IMG/VR virus record: IMGVR_UViG_3300005264_000043
Span: 1 to 42,918 of that record
Reading direction: 5' to 3' (one strand)
Origin: a virus
Length of the DNA: 42,918 bases
The notes under the pieces are model-generated. The model was not told where the DNA came from. It searched no databases and worked only from the letters and a program-made list of their open reading frames with translations. Positions 5,286 through 22,240 of this stretch are shown here, one piece after another (the stretch's first letter is position 1; every line of letters starts with the position of its first letter). The position numbers and the translations under genes were made by a program.

Positions 5286-5318
5286 TTAAGTGATACATAA
5301 ATAATACATAGGTTAATG

Positions 5319-5389
5319 TGTTGGTTAATTTAATTGGCAAAATCCATCACTTGATGATGGGGATATAGGTTCGAGTCCTATACTAACAC
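5319..5389 (+). tRNA. tRNA-Gln(UUG)-like gene
   Basis: A cloverleaf can be drawn. The acceptor stem pairs TGTTGGT (5319-5325) with ACTAACA (5382-5388), giving the U1-A72 start typical of tRNA-Gln. The D-arm has an AT-only stem and a GG in the loop. The anticodon stem is CCATC/GATGG (5344-5348 with 5356-5360), with the loop ACTTGAT giving anticodon TTG. The T-arm is ATAGG-TTCGAGT-CCTAT (5365-5381). CCA is not encoded. Odd points: C instead of U at position 33, a very weak D-stem, and a discriminator base C. It could be functional, degenerate, or a tRNA mimic. It lies just after a strong promoter. Confidence 0.72.
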
Positions 5390-5414
5390 ATTTTCAATAA
5401 TTAAAGGAGAAATA

Positions 5415-13635: not shown

Positions 13636-13937
13636 AAACGAAATTCAATGTAAAAGACACAGTTTATTGGGTAAATGACTATAAAATAGTTAAATCGATT
13701 GTCAAAGAAGTTATAGTTAGAACAGATAAAAATGGTACATCAACATTATACAACATTGTATCTGTTCTAGATGGTAAGGAAAGAATGAGTATTGAAGCAC
13801 AATTAGTGGATAATTTATCTACTGCTAAACGGAGTGCGATAATTAACTGGGGAACCATTACAAAAGATGTTGCTGAACAAATAGATAAGATGACAGAACT
13901 ATCATTTGAACCATTACGGATAACAAATGACAAATAA
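13632..13937 (+). CDS. Hypothetical protein, small beta-rich N-terminus
   Basis: 101 residues. The first half looks like a small barrel (FNVKDTVYWVND, IVKEVIVRTDKN, LYNIVSVLDGKERMSI), similar in style to KOW/SH3-like modules, and the second half is helical. ATGA with the gene before; its end overlaps the next start by 11 bases. No confident family. Confidence 0.58.
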   Translation: MKTKFNVKDTVYWVNDYKIVKSIVKEVIVRTDKNGTSTLYNIVSVLDGKERMSIEAQLVDNLSTAKRSAIINWGTITKDVAEQIDKMTELSFEPLRITNDK

Positions 13938-14733
13938 AGCTATTATTCTAGGGGGTGGAGCGAGCATAAGGCAAAATCTTTGGAGTGTTCCCATTGAAGA
14001 ATTGCCAGTATGGAACAATATTAAAAATTGTTTCACAATTGGTACTAATTTTGTATATAAATATTTTACACCAACAGTATTAATGTACTCTGATTACCAG
14101 TTTTACGCATCACAAAAGGATAAATTAAAAAATATACCATTAATAATTGGAACAGAAGATGGCGCATATAATCGAAAAGATGGACCAAGAATAGATGATA
14201 ATGTTATTTTATTTAAAGTGTGTAAGGGTAAGAAGAAATTAATATGGGGTCAGAGAGAAGAGGGCACCCATCCTCATTATTGGGGAAAGGATGCATGGAG
14301 CAAAGGATTTTACACAAGTCAACTCATTGGTCTTAAAGCATTAAATCTTGCAATAGCGCTCAATTGTGACGAAATATACTTATTAGGGATGGATGCTTGC
14401 GAGATAACAGGTCATACTCATTTTTATGGTGATACAACTACTGGTAACTATGTATATGATGGTCAAAAACATTGCGGAGTAGGTAAGCATAATAACGGAA
14501 AATATAAAACAGGTAACTATAATAAAATAGATGAATTAAATAATGTATGGTATGAACCATTTAAACAAGAATTAGATAATGGTGTTAAGATTTATAATGT
14601 ATCAAGGGATTCAAAAATAAATGTATTTCCAAAAATAAGTTATAACACCTTTTATAAAAAAATATTAAATGATAAACCTGTTGACCAAACTAAGATAAGA
14701 AGTGAGATTAGGAGAAAAAATAATAAAAGATGA
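13927..14733 (+). CDS. DUF115/GT42-like protein, first copy
   Basis: 268 residues. It opens with a nucleotide-fold strand and glycine turn (AIILGGGASIRQ, residues 5-16) and later carries LALNC-type helix plus DEIYLLGMDAC near 150-160, followed by HTHFYGD. This GGGxSL ... IYLLGxD pattern is shared by DUF115/MAF flagellin-glycosylation proteins and GT42 sialyltransferases. The gene at 15627 has the same pattern, so the two are probably distant paralogues. It opens the sugar-modification cassette. The likely role is in transferring or preparing a sugar for a phage or host glycan; substrate unknown. Confidence 0.62.
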   Translation: MTNKAIILGGGASIRQNLWSVPIEELPVWNNIKNCFTIGTNFVYKYFTPTVLMYSDYQFYASQKDKLKNIPLIIGTEDGAYNRKDGPRIDDNVILFKVCKGKKKLIWGQREEGTHPHYWGKDAWSKGFYTSQLIGLKALNLAIALNCDEIYLLGMDACEITGHTHFYGDTTTGNYVYDGQKHCGVGKHNNGKYKTGNYNKIDELNNVWYEPFKQELDNGVKIYNVSRDSKINVFPKISYNTFYKKILNDKPVDQTKIRSEIRRKNNKR

Positions 14734-15234: not shown

Positions 15235-15630
15235 ATGACTGTAACTAAAAAAATTTGGGGAAATAAACACAGTATATTAAATACAGACCAAATAGAAATC
15301 GATTTATTATATTTAGATAAAGATACATGTTGTTCAATTCATACACATGATAACAAAATTAATAGATTTGTATTATTGATGGGTGAAGTTAAAATAAAAA
15401 GTTCTTTGGGAGATTATGATTTAACGATTGATGAACCATTTGATGTTGAACCAGGAGTTATGCATCAATTTGTTGTAAACGAATACTCTGTTATGATAGA
15501 ATTAGCATATGTCAAAGAAGGATATATAGACAAAGATGATATTAAAAGATTTATACAAGGTGGTAAATTTGTTAATGGTGAATTTTTTTCATTAGACCAA
15601 TTAAAAATTGAAGGAAGATTAGAATTATGA
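15235..15630 (+). CDS. Cupin-domain protein
   Basis: 131 residues with a single cupin barrel: motif 1 HTHDNKINRFVLLMGEVKI (the two histidines in HTH, the usual glutamate changed to asparagine or arginine) and motif 2 PGVMHQFVV with one histidine. This shape is common in mannose-6-phosphate isomerase-like and sugar-epimerase cupins. Its place inside a glycosyltransferase cluster suggests a nucleotide-sugar isomerase or epimerase role, which is inference. GATAAGGATGG precedes the ATG. ATGA with the next gene. Confidence 0.72.
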   Translation: MTVTKKIWGNKHSILNTDQIEIDLLYLDKDTCCSIHTHDNKINRFVLLMGEVKIKSSLGDYDLTIDEPFDVEPGVMHQFVVNEYSVMIELAYVKEGYIDKDDIKRFIQGGKFVNGEFFSLDQLKIEGRLEL

Positions 15631-16490
15631 AATCTGAAATAACTAAAATTATTCGATTTTATATTGCTAAAATTTTAAGTGAATATTCAAATAACAAACA
15701 AGTTCACACAGAATATATCACTGATTGTGTAAAAGACGTTATGTGTGTTGCGCCTCAAAAAGCAGTTAAAACTATTAATTATAATTTATCGAATAACCAA
15801 CAGGGATTATATCATCAAAGCAATAAAATGGTGGATAATCCTTGTTTCGTTGTTGCCGGCGGAAACTCTTTAAAGGGGTTTGATTTTTCACAATTAAAAC
15901 ACAAAACAACAATTGTATCAAATAAATCAATAATAAATGTACCAAATTCAAATTATTTTATTACAACAGATTATACATTTTTAAATTGGTTAAAGAAGGA
16001 AAATTTATATAATAAATGGAAAGAATCAAAAGCTATGAAATTTTTTGTAGCAAATTGTATATCGCCTGTTATCCAAAATATAGATGGTGTTATTACTGAT
16101 GTAAGATATAATTTAAAATATGAATTGCAAGATTTTGATAAAATAGTTATTTGTAAATCTGCAAAAAGTGTAGGATTTGATTTTGAAAATTTTAACAGTG
16201 GATATAATAGTGGATTTTCAAGTTTACAATTAGCGATATTATTAGGTTATAATCCAATCTATTTACTTGGATTTGATATGAGTACAGATGGGGATGCAAC
16301 ACATTATCATGGTGGGTATGGAAAAAGTAAAGATGTGATGAATAAAAATTTAACCAATTATTCTAAACATTTTTTAACAATATTAGAAAGAATAAAAATC
16401 GAAAAACCAGATTTAAAAATTATTAGTTGTTCAGAGATAAGTTTATTAAATAAAGTAATTGATTATAAACCAATTGAGGAGATATTGTAA
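15627..16490 (+). CDS. DUF115/GT42-like glycosyltransferase-type protein, second copy
   Basis: 287 residues. A helical N-terminal part (1-70) precedes NPCFVVAGGNSLKGFDF, then YFITTDYTFLNWL, and the pattern NSGFSSLQLAILLGY-NPIYLLGFDM followed by THYHGGYGKS. The glycine turn, the small-residue helix and the IYLLGxD strand match the DUF115/GT42 sialyltransferase-like fold and the copy at 13927. It is joined to the cupin by ATGA and to the GT2 gene by TAATG. Predicted to act in the phage sugar pathway; donor and acceptor unknown. Confidence 0.62.
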   Translation: MKSEITKIIRFYIAKILSEYSNNKQVHTEYITDCVKDVMCVAPQKAVKTINYNLSNNQQGLYHQSNKMVDNPCFVVAGGNSLKGFDFSQLKHKTTIVSNKSIINVPNSNYFITTDYTFLNWLKKENLYNKWKESKAMKFFVANCISPVIQNIDGVITDVRYNLKYELQDFDKIVICKSAKSVGFDFENFNSGYNSGFSSLQLAILLGYNPIYLLGFDMSTDGDATHYHGGYGKSKDVMNKNLTNYSKHFLTILERIKIEKPDLKIISCSEISLLNKVIDYKPIEEIL

Positions 16491-17169: not shown

Positions 17170-17775
17170 ATGAACTTACACGATTTTAAACTATTACTAT
17201 CAAACTTTATACCACATGCACTAACTCGTTTTGGTGATGGTGAGAAAAACATTTTTGATGAAGTCAATTGCGATAGAAAAGGATTTAAATACGATAAAGA
17301 AATAGATGGGGTATTTCACAATGAATTGATTGAATCATATAATTATAAATCCGACAATTATTTTGTAGCTGATAAAGCACCGATTTCTGCATGTTTATTT
17401 GTTAATGAAAATTATAAAGATTTCTTTTCAAAGATTGTTCCATTGTTTAATTTATATAATGTTATTTTAGTTGGAAACGAAAAAGCAGAAATATTCGAAT
17501 TACCTTTTTTTGTAAATAGATTTATTCCTGTATCAGATAATGCATGGCGACATTATACAGATGTACAAAATGAAATATTTGCCCTTCTTAATCTATGGGG
17601 GAATACATCATTAGTTTTGTTTGCGTGTGGACCATATAGTAATGTTTTAATACATCGAATATGGAAAGAGAATAAACAAAATATATTGCTTAATATTGGT
17701 AGCACTCTAGACCCACTTTTTTATGGTGTAAATACAAGGCAATATCAAGAAAGGATATTTGATAATGATTGTTAG
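17170..17775 (+). CDS. GT-D-fold (DUF1792-like) glycosyltransferase-type protein
   Basis: 201 residues. The opening motif LTRFGDGEKNIF near 19-30 resembles the RxGDGE signature of GT-D/DUF1792 enzymes, followed by a mixed alpha/beta core (VILVGNEKAEIF, TSLVLFACGPYSNVLIHRIW, LLNIGSTLDP). GT-D enzymes add sugars to O-glycan chains in streptococci; here the acceptor is unknown. ATG at 17170 follows an AAAGGA site; a TTG just before is less likely. It overlaps the next gene by 11 bases. Confidence 0.6.
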   Translation: MNLHDFKLLLSNFIPHALTRFGDGEKNIFDEVNCDRKGFKYDKEIDGVFHNELIESYNYKSDNYFVADKAPISACLFVNENYKDFFSKIVPLFNLYNVILVGNEKAEIFELPFFVNRFIPVSDNAWRHYTDVQNEIFALLNLWGNTSLVLFACGPYSNVLIHRIWKENKQNILLNIGSTLDPLFYGVNTRQYQERIFDNDC

Positions 17776-18451
17776 AGGGTGCATAAGTTCAAATTATGGT
17801 GATACACTTAATAACGAATTGATTCGTTTAATATCTGGTGAAAAACCACGCATGGTTAATAACTCGTTTAAGAATTTAGATAATGAAGATATTTATATGT
17901 GTATTGGTAGTGTGCTTGGATGGGCGACTGAAGAATCGATTGTTTGGGGAACAGGATTTATTTCTGATTCTGATTTTATTACATCTATCCCGAATCCTAA
18001 AGAAATACACGCTGTCAGAGGGCCCATAACAAGAGATATTTTAATAACTAATGGTATTAGGTGTCCTGAAGTATATGGAGACCCAGCATTATTAATGCCT
18101 AGATATTATAACCCAGATTTGCCAAAGAAATATAAATTGTCGATTATTCCACATGCAATTGATAGAGTATTAATTCCAAAGTTAAAAGAGATATATCCTG
18201 ATGCTCATTTTATTGATATTACACAACCAAATATTTATGGATTTATTGATGAAGTAATTCAATCAGAACACATTATAACTTCAGCATTACATGGGTGCAT
18301 TACGGCTTATTCATATAAAGTAGCATATGACCATATACCTTTTTCAAATAAAGTATTAGGTAATGGGTTTAAATTTAAAGATTTTGAAGAAAGTAAACCA
18401 TATATTGATTTAGATAAATTGTTAGAAGTTTGCCCATTTAAGAAAGGATAA
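17765..18451 (+). CDS. Polysaccharide pyruvyl transferase family protein
   Basis: 228 residues. The family pattern is clear: SNYGDTLNNELIRLISG at about 8-24, HAVRGPITRDIL, VYGDPALLMPRYY, LSIIPHAID and ITSALHGCITAYSY near the end. Family members add pyruvate ketals to sugars in surface polysaccharides. Inside this cassette it would decorate a phage-made or host glycan. ATG at 17765 has an AAAGGA site; a TTG at 17759 is a weaker option. It ends on the TAATG that begins the degraded frame downstream. Confidence 0.83.
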   Translation: MIVRGCISSNYGDTLNNELIRLISGEKPRMVNNSFKNLDNEDIYMCIGSVLGWATEESIVWGTGFISDSDFITSIPNPKEIHAVRGPITRDILITNGIRCPEVYGDPALLMPRYYNPDLPKKYKLSIIPHAIDRVLIPKLKEIYPDAHFIDITQPNIYGFIDEVIQSEHIITSALHGCITAYSYKVAYDHIPFSNKVLGNGFKFKDFEESKPYIDLDKLLEVCPFKKG

Positions 18452-18704: not shown

Positions 18705-20813
18705 ATGAGAATATTATTCATAGAAACACCAGCACCGTATTTGGTGCGACAACATGTACAATTACCCCTCGGACTATTGATGTTAGCAACAGTTGTTGAA
18801 AATGATGGACACGAAGTTAAGTTCATTCGACCAATGCTAAAGGAAGATATACTAGAACATAAAGACTATGATATCATTTGTTTTGGTGGAACAACTTTAG
18901 AATTTCCCATGAATGAAGAATGTGTAAAATTAATTAGAGAAAACTTTCCAAACACTAAAGTATTCATTGGTGGTGTTCACGCATCTTCGATGTATAAGGA
19001 AATAGAAGAATCGAAAGTGTTTGATTCTATTTGTGTAGGTGAAGGCGAAAACTTGATTCTTGAAATGGTAAACGATGTTGAGAAAAATGAATTAAAATCT
19101 ATTTATTTTATGAAAGAATATGTTAAGGATTTAGATTCTCTTCCATTTATTAATTATGATTTGGTTGAAACAAAATTAGGTAAAGCAATATTTTTTGATG
19201 AACAAGAAGGCAACAGTGTTAATTTTTTAACAAGTCGAGGGTGTCCGTTCAATTGTTTAAGAGGTGACACATTAATAGAAACTATAGAAGGAAGAATTCC
19301 AATTAAAGATTTAGTGGGCAGAGATATTAAAGTGTTGACCAGAAATCTTATTACAGGAAACGCTGAATTCGCACAAGCATATAATATAAGTTTAACTAAA
19401 CAAAATGCCGAATTAGTTCGAGTTAATTTTGATGATGGAACTCACATTGATTGTACGCCAGACCATAAATTTATGACATTTAAAAACGGAAACCAACATA
19501 GCGAAACGACTGAAAAAGAAATCGAGGCCCAACATTTACAACCAAAAATGACGGTGCGTGCTATTAAATATGAAACAACGGCATATAACTATATTGATAT
19601 AGTTTGGGGTCGAAGAAAATGTAAGAAATTGCATAGATTAATCATGGAAGGTATATTAAATCGAAAATTGACATCAAAAGAAGAAATCCACCATAAAGAT
19701 AAAAACCGAAATAATAATAGTCCCTTAAATTTAATTTATTGTAAAAACAAAAAAGAGCATCAGTTATATCATCCAGAGGTTTCTGAACGAATGAGAAATG
19801 ATAATCCAGCAAAACATTTAGCAAAAGAACACTTTATAAAACTAGGTAAAATGCAGAAAGAAAAAAAAAGAAGTTTAGAATCAAGAATAAAGTATAGTCA
19901 ATCTAAGTTGGGTATGAATAATCCTAATTATAAAGATGGACAAACCTGTGGAAAAAAACATAGTAAATTAGAAATAAATCATAAAATAGTGTCAGTAACA
20001 AAACTAGCCATAAAAGAAGATACTTATTGTATGGAAGTGCCAGGATATAATTGGTTTTATGCAAATCAAGTGTTAGTTCATAATTGCTCATTCTGTGCTT
20101 CTCAATCTATGTGGACAAGAAGAGTAAGATTTCGTTCAATAGATAATATCATTGAAGAAATGAAATTACTTAAAGAAAAATACAACATTAATCAATTTAG
20201 ATTAGCAGATGATAATTTAACATCTAATAAAAGAAGATGTTTAGAATTTTGTAAAGCTATTAAAGAATTGAATGTGTTTTGGCGATGCAGTATAAGAGCA
20301 GAATCAATTACACCAGAAGTAGCTAATGCAATGCATGATGCTGGTGCAAGAGAAATATCTCCGGGCATTGAAAACTTAGACCAAAGAGTGTTAGATTTTT
20401 TACACAAAGATACTACTATTGAAAAAATGTATAATGGATGTTTACATGCTCAAAACGCTGGTCTTAAAGTAAGAGGACTTTTTATGACAGGAATACCCGG
20501 TGAACAAATGGATTCTCCGTCTATCAACGAACAAATATTAAAAACTTTTCCAATAGACTATGCAACATTGAGTACATTTATACCATTACCCGGAACAGCA
20601 ATATTTAAAGACCCGGATGAATTTAATTGTGAAATTTTAAGTACAGATTTTAATAAATACAATAAAGACTTTTATCAAAAAATAGGAGAAGAAGCAATTA
20701 AACGAGATTATGCACCTCTTATTCATAATAAGTTTTTAACAATTAATGAACAAAAATGGGTTGTTTCAGAAATGGAACGAGTAATCAATATTGTCAATGT
20801 TAATAAAGGATAA
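18705..20813 (+). CDS. Radical SAM protein with B12-type N-terminal domain, interrupted by an intein
   Basis: 702 codons, giving a mature enzyme of 425 residues after splicing. Residues 1-170 form a cobalamin-binding-like domain (PLGLLMLATVVENDGHEV, IICFGGTTLEF, VFIGGVHAS, CVGEGE). The radical SAM cluster motif is GCPFNC-SFC: C180, then the 277-residue intein (184-460), then C461 and C464. The downstream core has FRLADDNL, REISPGIENL and GLFMTGIPGE. Splicing restores CxxxCxxC, so the enzyme is inactive until the intein leaves. Family members do radical methylations or rearrangements; its setting among glycosyltransferases suggests sugar or lipid modification. AAGGAAAATAA precedes the ATG. Confidence 0.9.
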   Translation: MRILFIETPAPYLVRQHVQLPLGLLMLATVVENDGHEVKFIRPMLKEDILEHKDYDIICFGGTTLEFPMNEECVKLIRENFPNTKVFIGGVHASSMYKEIEESKVFDSICVGEGENLILEMVNDVEKNELKSIYFMKEYVKDLDSLPFINYDLVETKLGKAIFFDEQEGNSVNFLTSRGCPFNCLRGDTLIETIEGRIPIKDLVGRDIKVLTRNLITGNAEFAQAYNISLTKQNAELVRVNFDDGTHIDCTPDHKFMTFKNGNQHSETTEKEIEAQHLQPKMTVRAIKYETTAYNYIDIVWGRRKCKKLHRLIMEGILNRKLTSKEEIHHKDKNRNNNSPLNLIYCKNKKEHQLYHPEVSERMRNDNPAKHLAKEHFIKLGKMQKEKKRSLESRIKYSQSKLGMNNPNYKDGQTCGKKHSKLEINHKIVSVTKLAIKEDTYCMEVPGYNWFYANQVLVHNCSFCASQSMWTRRVRFRSIDNIIEEMKLLKEKYNINQFRLADDNLTSNKRRCLEFCKAIKELNVFWRCSIRAESITPEVANAMHDAGAREISPGIENLDQRVLDFLHKDTTIEKMYNGCLHAQNAGLKVRGLFMTGIPGEQMDSPSINEQILKTFPIDYATLSTFIPLPGTAIFKDPDEFNCEILSTDFNKYNKDFYQKIGEEAIKRDYAPLIHNKFLTINEQKWVVSEMERVINIVNVNKG
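19254..20084 (+). mobile_element. Intein with HNH homing endonuclease
   Basis: A 277-residue in-frame insert. Block A is CLRGDTLIET with catalytic Cys1. Block B is DCTPDHKF with its TxxH. Block F is EDTYCMEVPGYNWFYANQ. Block G is VLVHN followed by +1 cysteine. All splice-site residues (C1, B-block H, terminal HN, C+1) are present. The middle holds an HNH nuclease: KKLHRLIMEG, EEIHHKDKNRNN with the H-H pair, SPLNLIYC. A NUMOD-like piece NPNYKDGQ follows. Length is typical of a full intein with endonuclease. The insertion lies inside the most conserved codons of the host gene, the usual choice for homing elements. Confidence 0.92.
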
Positions 20814-20814
20814 T

Positions 20815-21699
20815 ATGAAAATAGCATTTGTGTTACCATTTATGTATAACTGGAATTCATTTCCAACTACAAGAGCATCATATGAAATGTTACAAATACT
20901 TGGACATGAAGTTGATTTATTTAATAAAAATAAACAACCAAAGATTGACTATAATAATTATGACCAAGTTTGGTTAATAGGTGCTGGTACTAAATTAACA
21001 ACTGAAGAGTTTGTAAATATTAATGTGTTAGTTATAGCGTTTGGTTTATCTGACCCAAATTTATTTAATTCTGACCATTTTATCAATTGTGATGTTTATT
21101 GTACAAATGATTTAGAAATTTATAAATCACATAAACACTATAAAAAGACTATTTACAATCCTACATCGTGTGATAAAAGATATCACAAGAATCTGAATCT
21201 TGTTAAAGAAACAGATATTTTAACATTTGGTATAGGTAAACATAAGTTTGTGACAAATAGAAATGAAACAGTTAATAAATTAAGAAGTGAAGGATTTAAT
21301 ATTAAAGTGTTTGGAAGAGATTGGGATAAACATAAAGACACATATGCATTTATTGAAGGTCAAGAATTAATTGAAGAAATAAACAAAGCACATTTATTAT
21401 TAGATTTGTCAAACGAAACTACATCTTGGCCACATAGAATATTAGAAGCTGGTGCATGTGGTACACCTGTTATATCTATTAATAGAGAAGATACTAAACA
21501 AATGTTTGGTGAAGAAACAATAATCTATTATGATGATTATGAAGATTTGGCATTAACTCTAAATGTGATGATGAATCATAAAGCAGTGTTAAAAATAATT
21601 GGGTGTGAAACGCAAAAAATATGTTATGAAAAACATGATATATCTGTGCGAATTAAACAATTACTTGACAAATTATGGTTAAATATGTTATACTTATAA
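20815..21699 (+). CDS. GT-B-type glycosyltransferase
   Basis: 294 residues. Two Rossmann-like halves: MKIAFVLPFMYNWNSFP at the start with a short QVWLIGAGTK strand, and a C-terminal half with LTFGIGKHKF, IKVFGRDWD, LLLDLSNETTSWPHR and ILEAGACGTPVISINRE. The last is the donor-binding motif of group 1 / CgeB-like transferases. The ATG at 20815 follows AAAGGATAAT. A promoter element (21665-21694) is buried in its last codons. Confidence 0.78.
   Translation: MKIAFVLPFMYNWNSFPTTRASYEMLQILGHEVDLFNKNKQPKIDYNNYDQVWLIGAGTKLTTEEFVNINVLVIAFGLSDPNLFNSDHFINCDVYCTNDLEIYKSHKHYKKTIYNPTSCDKRYHKNLNLVKETDILTFGIGKHKFVTNRNETVNKLRSEGFNIKVFGRDWDKHKDTYAFIEGQELIEEINKAHLLLDLSNETTSWPHRILEAGACGTPVISINREDTKQMFGEETIIYYDDYEDLALTLNVMMNHKAVLKIIGCETQKICYEKHDISVRIKQLLDKLWLNMLYL
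21665..21694 (+). promoter_or_regulatory. Sigma-70-type promoter, repeated phage element copy 2
   Basis: TTGACA (21665-21670), an 18-base spacer, then TATACT (21689-21694). ATATGTTATACTT is identical to the copies at 5256 and 23043. It lies inside the end of the glycosyltransferase gene, and the methyltransferase ATG comes seven bases after the -10. That is about where transcription should start, so the transcript may lack a leader. Confidence 0.7.
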
Positions 21700-21700
21700 T

Positions 21701-22240
21701 ATGAACGAATGGGCGACTTTTTATAAAGACAGATTAAATGAATCTTATTATAAACATATCAATAAAAGATATTCTCCTTTTATAAAAGAAATTAAAAGGA
21801 ATCTATCGAAAGATTTAACTGTGGTTGAATTAGGATGCGGAATAGGAAGTATTAGTCGTTCTCTTAAATCATCAAAGTGTAAATTGATATGTGTTGATAA
21901 CAATTCATCGATGTTGAAAATGTCGAAACGAAATAAATTATCACACGCAATATTTATTAAACAAGATATAACAAAATCTTATAAAATAAAGGCCGACATT
22001 GCACATAGTCATGGAGTATTAGAACATTTTTCAGATGAACAAATTAGAAAAATAATTAAGATTCAGAAGAAGCAATATAAAACATTAATACATTATGTAC
22101 CAAGTAAGAAATATAAGAATCCAAGTTTTGGTGATGAACGATTAATGACAGTGAATCAATGGAAAAGAATTTGTAATCCTGATGAAATTATTGAATTCAA
22201 TAATGGATATGATTTAATTTTAAAATTTAACAAGGAATAA
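21701..22240 (+). CDS. Class I SAM-dependent methyltransferase
   Basis: 179 residues with the SAM-binding motif I VVELGCGIGSIS at about 41-52, motif II region LICVDNNSSML, and HSHGVLEHFSDEQIRKI as the motif IV-V region. A C-terminal part (TLIHYVPSKKYKNP) is shorter than in many homologues. It could methylate a sugar, lipid or small metabolite in the cassette; no target motif is visible. The start sits directly behind the -10 of promoter copy 2 and no good ribosome site is present. Confidence 0.83.
   Translation: MNEWATFYKDRLNESYYKHINKRYSPFIKEIKRNLSKDLTVVELGCGIGSISRSLKSSKCKLICVDNNSSMLKMSKRNKLSHAIFIKQDITKSYKIKADIAHSHGVLEHFSDEQIRKIIKIQKKQYKTLIHYVPSKKYKNPSFGDERLMTVNQWKRICNPDEIIEFNNGYDLILKFNKE

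Follow-up and report, generated by a model that had tools for sequence, protein, structure and literature searches.

An HNH intein at the second cluster cysteine of a phage radical SAM protein, and its relatives in divergent viral enzymes

Why should an intein lie inside the CxxxCxxC motif of a radical SAM enzyme, among the ligands of its iron-sulfur cluster? The question is raised by a gene in a viral stretch of 42,918 nt (IMGVR_UViG_3300005264_000043), the whole of which we refer to as the window; it is a piece of a tailed-phage genome, with genes for tape measure, baseplate wedge, DNA ligase and exonuclease. A first-pass annotation, made from the letters alone, had read an HNH intein at 19254-20084 and had proposed that splicing is an on-switch for the enzyme, perhaps responsive to redox or metal state. 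We find that the gene encodes a B12-binding radical SAM protein with an HNH intein, most likely of class 1, before the second cysteine of the motif. This intein very probably belongs to a mobile, largely phage-borne family that would home to the motif across many radical SAM genes of divergent sequence. The gene, its parts and its neighbours are as follows.

17759-18451, + strand: polysaccharide pyruvyl transferase-like gene, upstream neighbour (PF04230, E = 3e-12)
18705-20813 (stop included), + strand: intein-containing B12-binding/radical SAM gene, 702-aa precursor (open reading frame, Pfam, NCBIfam)
18705-19253, + strand: N-extein, 183 aa, with the B12-binding domain and the first part of the radical SAM motif, up to ...SRGCPFN (PF02310; junction set by the intein-free homolog L138)
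19254-20084, + strand: intein, 277 aa, Cys1 to Asn277, predicted HINT fold with an inserted HNH endonuclease (PF14890, structure model, 24-member alignment)
19455-19466, + strand: intein block B motif TPDH (sequence; in the family, T in 23 of 24 and H in 24 of 24)
19626-19754, + strand: HNH_3 homing-endonuclease core, HH...N...NL motif, intein residues 125-167 (PF13392 just below cut-off; PHROG HNH families)
20028-20030, + strand: block F Cys, C259 of the intein and C442 of the open reading frame (invariant, 24 of 24 family members)
20085-20813, + strand: C-extein, 242 aa and stop, with Cys+1 (the second cluster Cys), CSFC and the remaining radical SAM domain (PF04055, residues 459-603)
20815-21699, + strand: glycosyltransferase, downstream neighbour, inferred start; the mechanical reading frame runs from 20791 (PF13524; homolog at 7282-8160 of L002)
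21701-22240, + strand: methyltransferase (PF13649)

Positions 18705-20813 form a single open frame of 702 codons, in which Pfam places a B12-binding domain at residues 20-118 (E = 6e-14) and Radical_SAM (PF04055) at residues 459-603 (E = 4e-17). Intein_splicing (PF14890) matches with E = 1.4e-15 when the whole frame is searched and with E = 6e-16 when the 277 aa are searched alone. The NCBIfam model intein_Nterm begins precisely at residue 184 and the corresponding C-terminal model runs through the +1 Cys; several PHROG families of HNH endonucleases match the intein (E about 1e-11 to 4e-12), and the Pfam HNH_3 model reaches 22.8-23.8 bits against a cut-off of 24.8. An AlphaFold model of the intein, with 20 family members as input, has a mean pLDDT of 88 and its best matches in the PDB are inteins (NpuDnaB intein 4o1r, TMt 0.84); the model of the precursor has a pLDDT of 76, and the cluster loop is poorly predicted. 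The splice residues can all be read, namely Cys1 (C184), TPDH, ...QVLVHN and Cys+1 (C461). Removal of the 831 nt (277 codons) leaves 425 of the 702 residues and rebuilds CPFN-CSFC, i.e. CxxxCxxC, in the predicted spliced product. The segment is an HNH intein in a B12-binding/radical SAM protein, and chance resemblance is ruled out.

Homologs that lack the intein define its boundaries exactly. One viral contig, which entered our set twice (as L002 and L138), encodes an extein 79% identical to that of the window with the same glycosyltransferase gene next to it (a syntenic locus), and is uninterrupted across the junction, reading ...TSRGCPFNCSFCASQ and likewise ...SRGCPFNCSFCASQ. Its alignment with the window protein contains a single gap, of 277 of 277 residues, at the predicted junction. 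Equally exact gaps separate other intein-bearing genes from intein-free ones: 281 of 281 residues for L092 versus L175 (extein identity 91%), 253 of 253 for L114 versus L133 (71%) and likewise for L149, and 328 of 328 for L095 versus L174 (43%). Radical SAM genes without an intein at GCP[FY]NC[ST]FC-like sites were found in 51 viral stretches, and the site is therefore mostly empty. Together with the Pfam, NCBIfam and PHROG matches, these comparisons bear out the first-pass annotation in its identification of an HNH intein, in its boundaries and splice residues (Cys1, TPDH, VLVHN, Cys+1), and in placing the insertion at the second cysteine so that splicing restores the motif; the product sizes it predicted, 277 and 425 residues, agree with the codon count. 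Its statement that the catalytic cysteines are also the future cluster ligands holds for Cys+1 (C461) but not for Cys1, which leaves with the intein. Homologs with the segment as a genuine domain, which the annotation named as evidence that would count against it, did not turn up; in the homologs we checked, the segment is either precisely absent or present as an intein, sometimes a mini-intein of 140-166 aa.

Judging from its conserved residues, the window intein is predicted to splice and is most likely class 1: it has Cys1, a TxxH motif, VLVHN followed by C, a predicted HINT fold and precise intein-free alleles. Within the family, Cys1 is present in 23 of 24 members, the block B His and the terminal Asn in 24 of 24, and Cys+1 in all; the penultimate intein residue is Lys in 12 members and His in 8. 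Residue conservation indicates that the HNH catalytic core of the window intein is intact (the HNH_3 match itself is weak), as H146, H147, N159 and H173 are invariant in 21 of the 21 members that keep the HNH domain. On the enzyme side, the predicted spliced product has both CPFNCSFC and PF04055, and the L002 homolog reads the same without interruption. Related inteins of other genes have Asp in place of the block F Cys that all 24 members of the second-Cys family share; so do the third-Cys radical SAM inteins with a readable block F, except for one with Asn. Class 3 inteins lack Cys1 and carry a WCT set in blocks B, F and G. A class 3 mechanism, which the block F Cys might suggest, was rejected because Cys1 is present and the block G Thr absent. 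We also rejected the block B Cys (C67, 23 of 24) as a special redox residue, given that inteins of other phage genes related to this family also have IDCTPDH. One member of the family, at the same site (L114, 4998-5756), has Pro (CCA) in place of Cys1 but keeps an open frame, the HNH region and the block F Cys. By its residues this intein would be either splicing-dead or spliced via a route independent of Cys1; some copies may therefore depart from the standard splicing route.

A scan of viral contig DNA for the pattern GCx[FY]xC followed by an intein start yielded 16 stretches, of which 14 are in-frame inteins in radical SAM proteins. In these 14 cases Cys1 replaces the second cluster Cys and Cys+1 restores it; for three stretches that end before the C-terminal junction, overlapping loci supplied the reading. 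With the inteins as profile queries, the count rose to at least 24 viral contigs besides the window. When the same pattern was sought in 84,980 bacterial and archaeal species, 30 stretches were recovered and a single one, L045, was a genuine member; it is a 7.6-kb contig binned in a gammaproteobacterium. The same intein family thus occupies the identical position in 26 records (24 viral contigs, L045 and the window). A profile search of four phylum samples (1036 genomes), one of them centred on the genome of L045, gave a strong match only in that genome; the other matches were weak (E = 1e-20 to 1e-12) and lay in other genes, at sites that are gyrB-like or phage portal-like to judge by the flanking sequence. 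Given the single cellular case and only weak matches elsewhere, the family looks phage-borne. The plasmid collection contained no match, and no record in the annotated phage collection combined the window extein with the intein. The best radical SAM models differ among the exteins (HpnJ/BchE-like, KedN5-like and Sden_1168-like). That a single intein family is fixed at this one site in so many widely diverged radical SAM enzymes of phages goes beyond what the first-pass annotation had described.

Inteins are usually confined to one gene. Among 24 non-duplicate members of this family, median identity is 20% for the exteins and 45% for the inteins, and intein identity exceeds extein identity in 93% of pairs. 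For example, the nearest intein to that of the window is in L092 (61% identity), while the exteins of the two share just 22%, and L096 and L100 have inteins 63% and exteins 17% identical. Across an extein tree of radical SAM proteins, 23 with the intein and 37 empty, the presence of the intein switches 12 times, with nine or more of these switches on well-supported (starred) branches. The hypothesis that inteins from L092/L096/L102/L106/L108, whose exteins form a clade, themselves form a single clade was rejected (P = 3e-34 by the AU test, L117 left out); a narrower test excluding L100 gave only P = 0.033. The number of transfers is approximate, as extein alignments are weak at ~20% identity, but the direction of the result is independent of it. 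Three members (L110, L111 and L117) have lost the endonuclease and are mini-inteins of 140-166 aa, the L117 intein having 166 aa and no HNH. L104 (L059) has an HNH intein of 296 aa whereas L110 (L064) and L111 (L065), whose exteins are about 91% identical to that of L104, have inteins of 140 aa without HNH; here the endonuclease was lost recently. Splicing that is kept while the endonuclease can go is the usual homing cycle.

These data bear on several other accounts of the locus. For vertical descent of an ancient intein along with radical SAM genes, followed by many losses, one could cite the weak correlation of intein and extein identities (Spearman 0.44) and the one extein clade that is mostly intein-bearing; however, the conflict between intein and extein groupings (AU P = 3e-34) and the greater similarity of the inteins in 93% of pairs make such a history very unlikely. 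It is more improbable still that the window intein is splicing-defective and now gives a split or inactive enzyme: a relative, L114, has indeed lost Cys1, but the window copy keeps Cys1, TPDH, the terminal Asn and Cys+1 in an open frame. Next to no probability attaches to the segment being a genuine inserted domain of the enzyme rather than an intein; nothing came to light in its favour, all splice motifs and the predicted HINT fold speak against this, and the exact empty sites in intein-free homologs led us to reject it.

Splicing gated by redox or metal state is a more substantial proposal. It holds that C-4 might pair with Cys1, or that C-4, Cys1, the block F Cys, Cys+1 and C+4 might bind a metal, and that splicing would so be blocked until conditions suit an oxygen-sensitive enzyme. 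A Cys-3/Cys1 disulfide trap has been published for the P. abyssi MoaA intein, likewise in a radical SAM protein (Callahan et al. 2011, as related in the reviews PMC3922620 and PMC10663303). In the family studied here, C-4 and C+4 occur in every member, being cluster ligands, and the block F Cys is invariant (24 of 24) yet Asp in related inteins of other genes. Against this, the spacing is CxxxC (-4) and not CxxC (-3), and the conservation of C-4 and C+4 follows from the enzyme rather than from the intein; intein-free homologs at a syntenic locus imply that no switch is required, and a sporadic distribution with endonuclease turnover is what a selfish element predicts. We therefore regard gated splicing as unlikely; the idea is plausible by analogy, not new, and unnecessary to explain the site. 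The lack of a normal CxxxCxxC loop in the unspliced protein simply follows from the insertion and does not argue for regulation, and a motif that is complete only after splicing is found with most active-site inteins. It seems quite unlikely that the phage-specific family has been kept partly because the thiol-rich splice site makes splicing, and with it activation of the enzyme, respond to oxygen, reductant or iron; if that were true, phages would gain a switch, gated by a cofactor, for enzymes that are oxygen-labile.

Most simply, the data are explained by a selfish intein family with homing keyed to a catalytic motif that the whole superfamily shares. Splicing would start with an N-S shift at Cys1 (C184), continue with transfer to Cys+1 (C461), and end with cyclisation of Asn277 and ligation of the exteins; it is presumably efficient in the cell, returning a normal enzyme in which C180, C461 and C464 would be the cluster ligands. 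The HNH domain would cut the DNA of the motif and so allow the intein to home. With an intact HNH core, homing into radical SAM motifs that lack the intein best explains the distribution. Third codon positions near the site vary, and the HNH domain would thus have to tolerate degeneracy. The choice of site would then reflect conservation of the target and the cost of imprecise loss, with regulation optional. The hosts share little beyond the motif, which belongs to a very large superfamily of enzymes, and the intein family has apparently moved between them. The alleles (full, endonuclease-lost, Cys1-lost and empty), in some cases from near-identical genes, provide a natural series for studying the tolerance of homing endonucleases for degenerate targets, and the same series is suited to asking whether an intein among iron-sulfur ligands is redox-regulated.

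Inteins in the radical SAM motif are already known, and those checked lie at the third Cys. Going by the reviews cited above, the P. abyssi MoaA intein resembles that of the window in two respects, its host being a radical SAM enzyme and its N-extein having a Cys that can pair with Cys1, but it is archaeal with its Cys at -3, whereas the window intein is of phage origin, at the second Cys, with C180 at -4; the -3 spacing would imply a third-Cys insertion in a CxxxCxxC protein. NF038136 (the Rv2578c family) likewise has an intein inside the radical SAM CxxxCxxC, with Cys1 and Cys+1. It differs in its insertion at the third Cys (GCSHACDY|C...SHN|CFAR, two members read), its length of about 345 aa, a LAGLIDADG-like stretch and a block F Asp, and its members are found in bacteria of the phylum searched. 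The window protein scores 28 bits against the NF038136 cut-off of 700 and, with its insertion at the second Cys, is not a member. The best whole-length model match to the window intein is NF052663 (intein-containing RtcB family, E = 6e-23), whose host protein is of the RNA ligase family and whose cut-off is 1050 bits, compared with 82 for the window; no member above this cut-off was found in 296 genomes of one phylum or in seven further genomes. Terminase and nrdA inteins of Lactobacillus phage CL2 and of Campylobacter and Caulobacter phages are 24-41% identical to the window intein in the N-terminal splicing region, but lie in other host genes and at other sites, and the matches are mostly partial. 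Viral inteins L178-L187 are phage-borne and share the motif with the window intein, at the third rather than the second Cys; viral inteins have in these contigs exploited the radical SAM motif a second time, separately. In the open-licence literature we found no report of a second-Cys insertion or of a phage intein family at the radical SAM motif, and no paper on radical SAM inteins of phages.

Two further sets of inteins came to light in these searches. In one viral frame of 1483 aa (L071), three regions resemble the C-terminal splice region of an intein, with block F Asp and Ser+1, which suggests several inteins in one gene. In cellular genomes, weakly related inteins (L195-L205) lie in other conserved motifs, e.g. 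VEGDSAGG|C...HN|SAKQGR (gyrB-like), again with block F Asp and Ser+1.

As genes for a glycosyltransferase, a pyruvyl transferase-like protein and a methyltransferase surround it, the intein-bearing enzyme may modify a glycan. Two proteins encoded in the glycan-like cluster, at 13927-14733 and 15627-16490, are weakly MptE-like (6-hydroxymethylpterin diphosphokinase), below the Pfam cut-off. A tRNA-Gln (anticodon ttg) at 5318-5390 is the sole tRNA found in the window.
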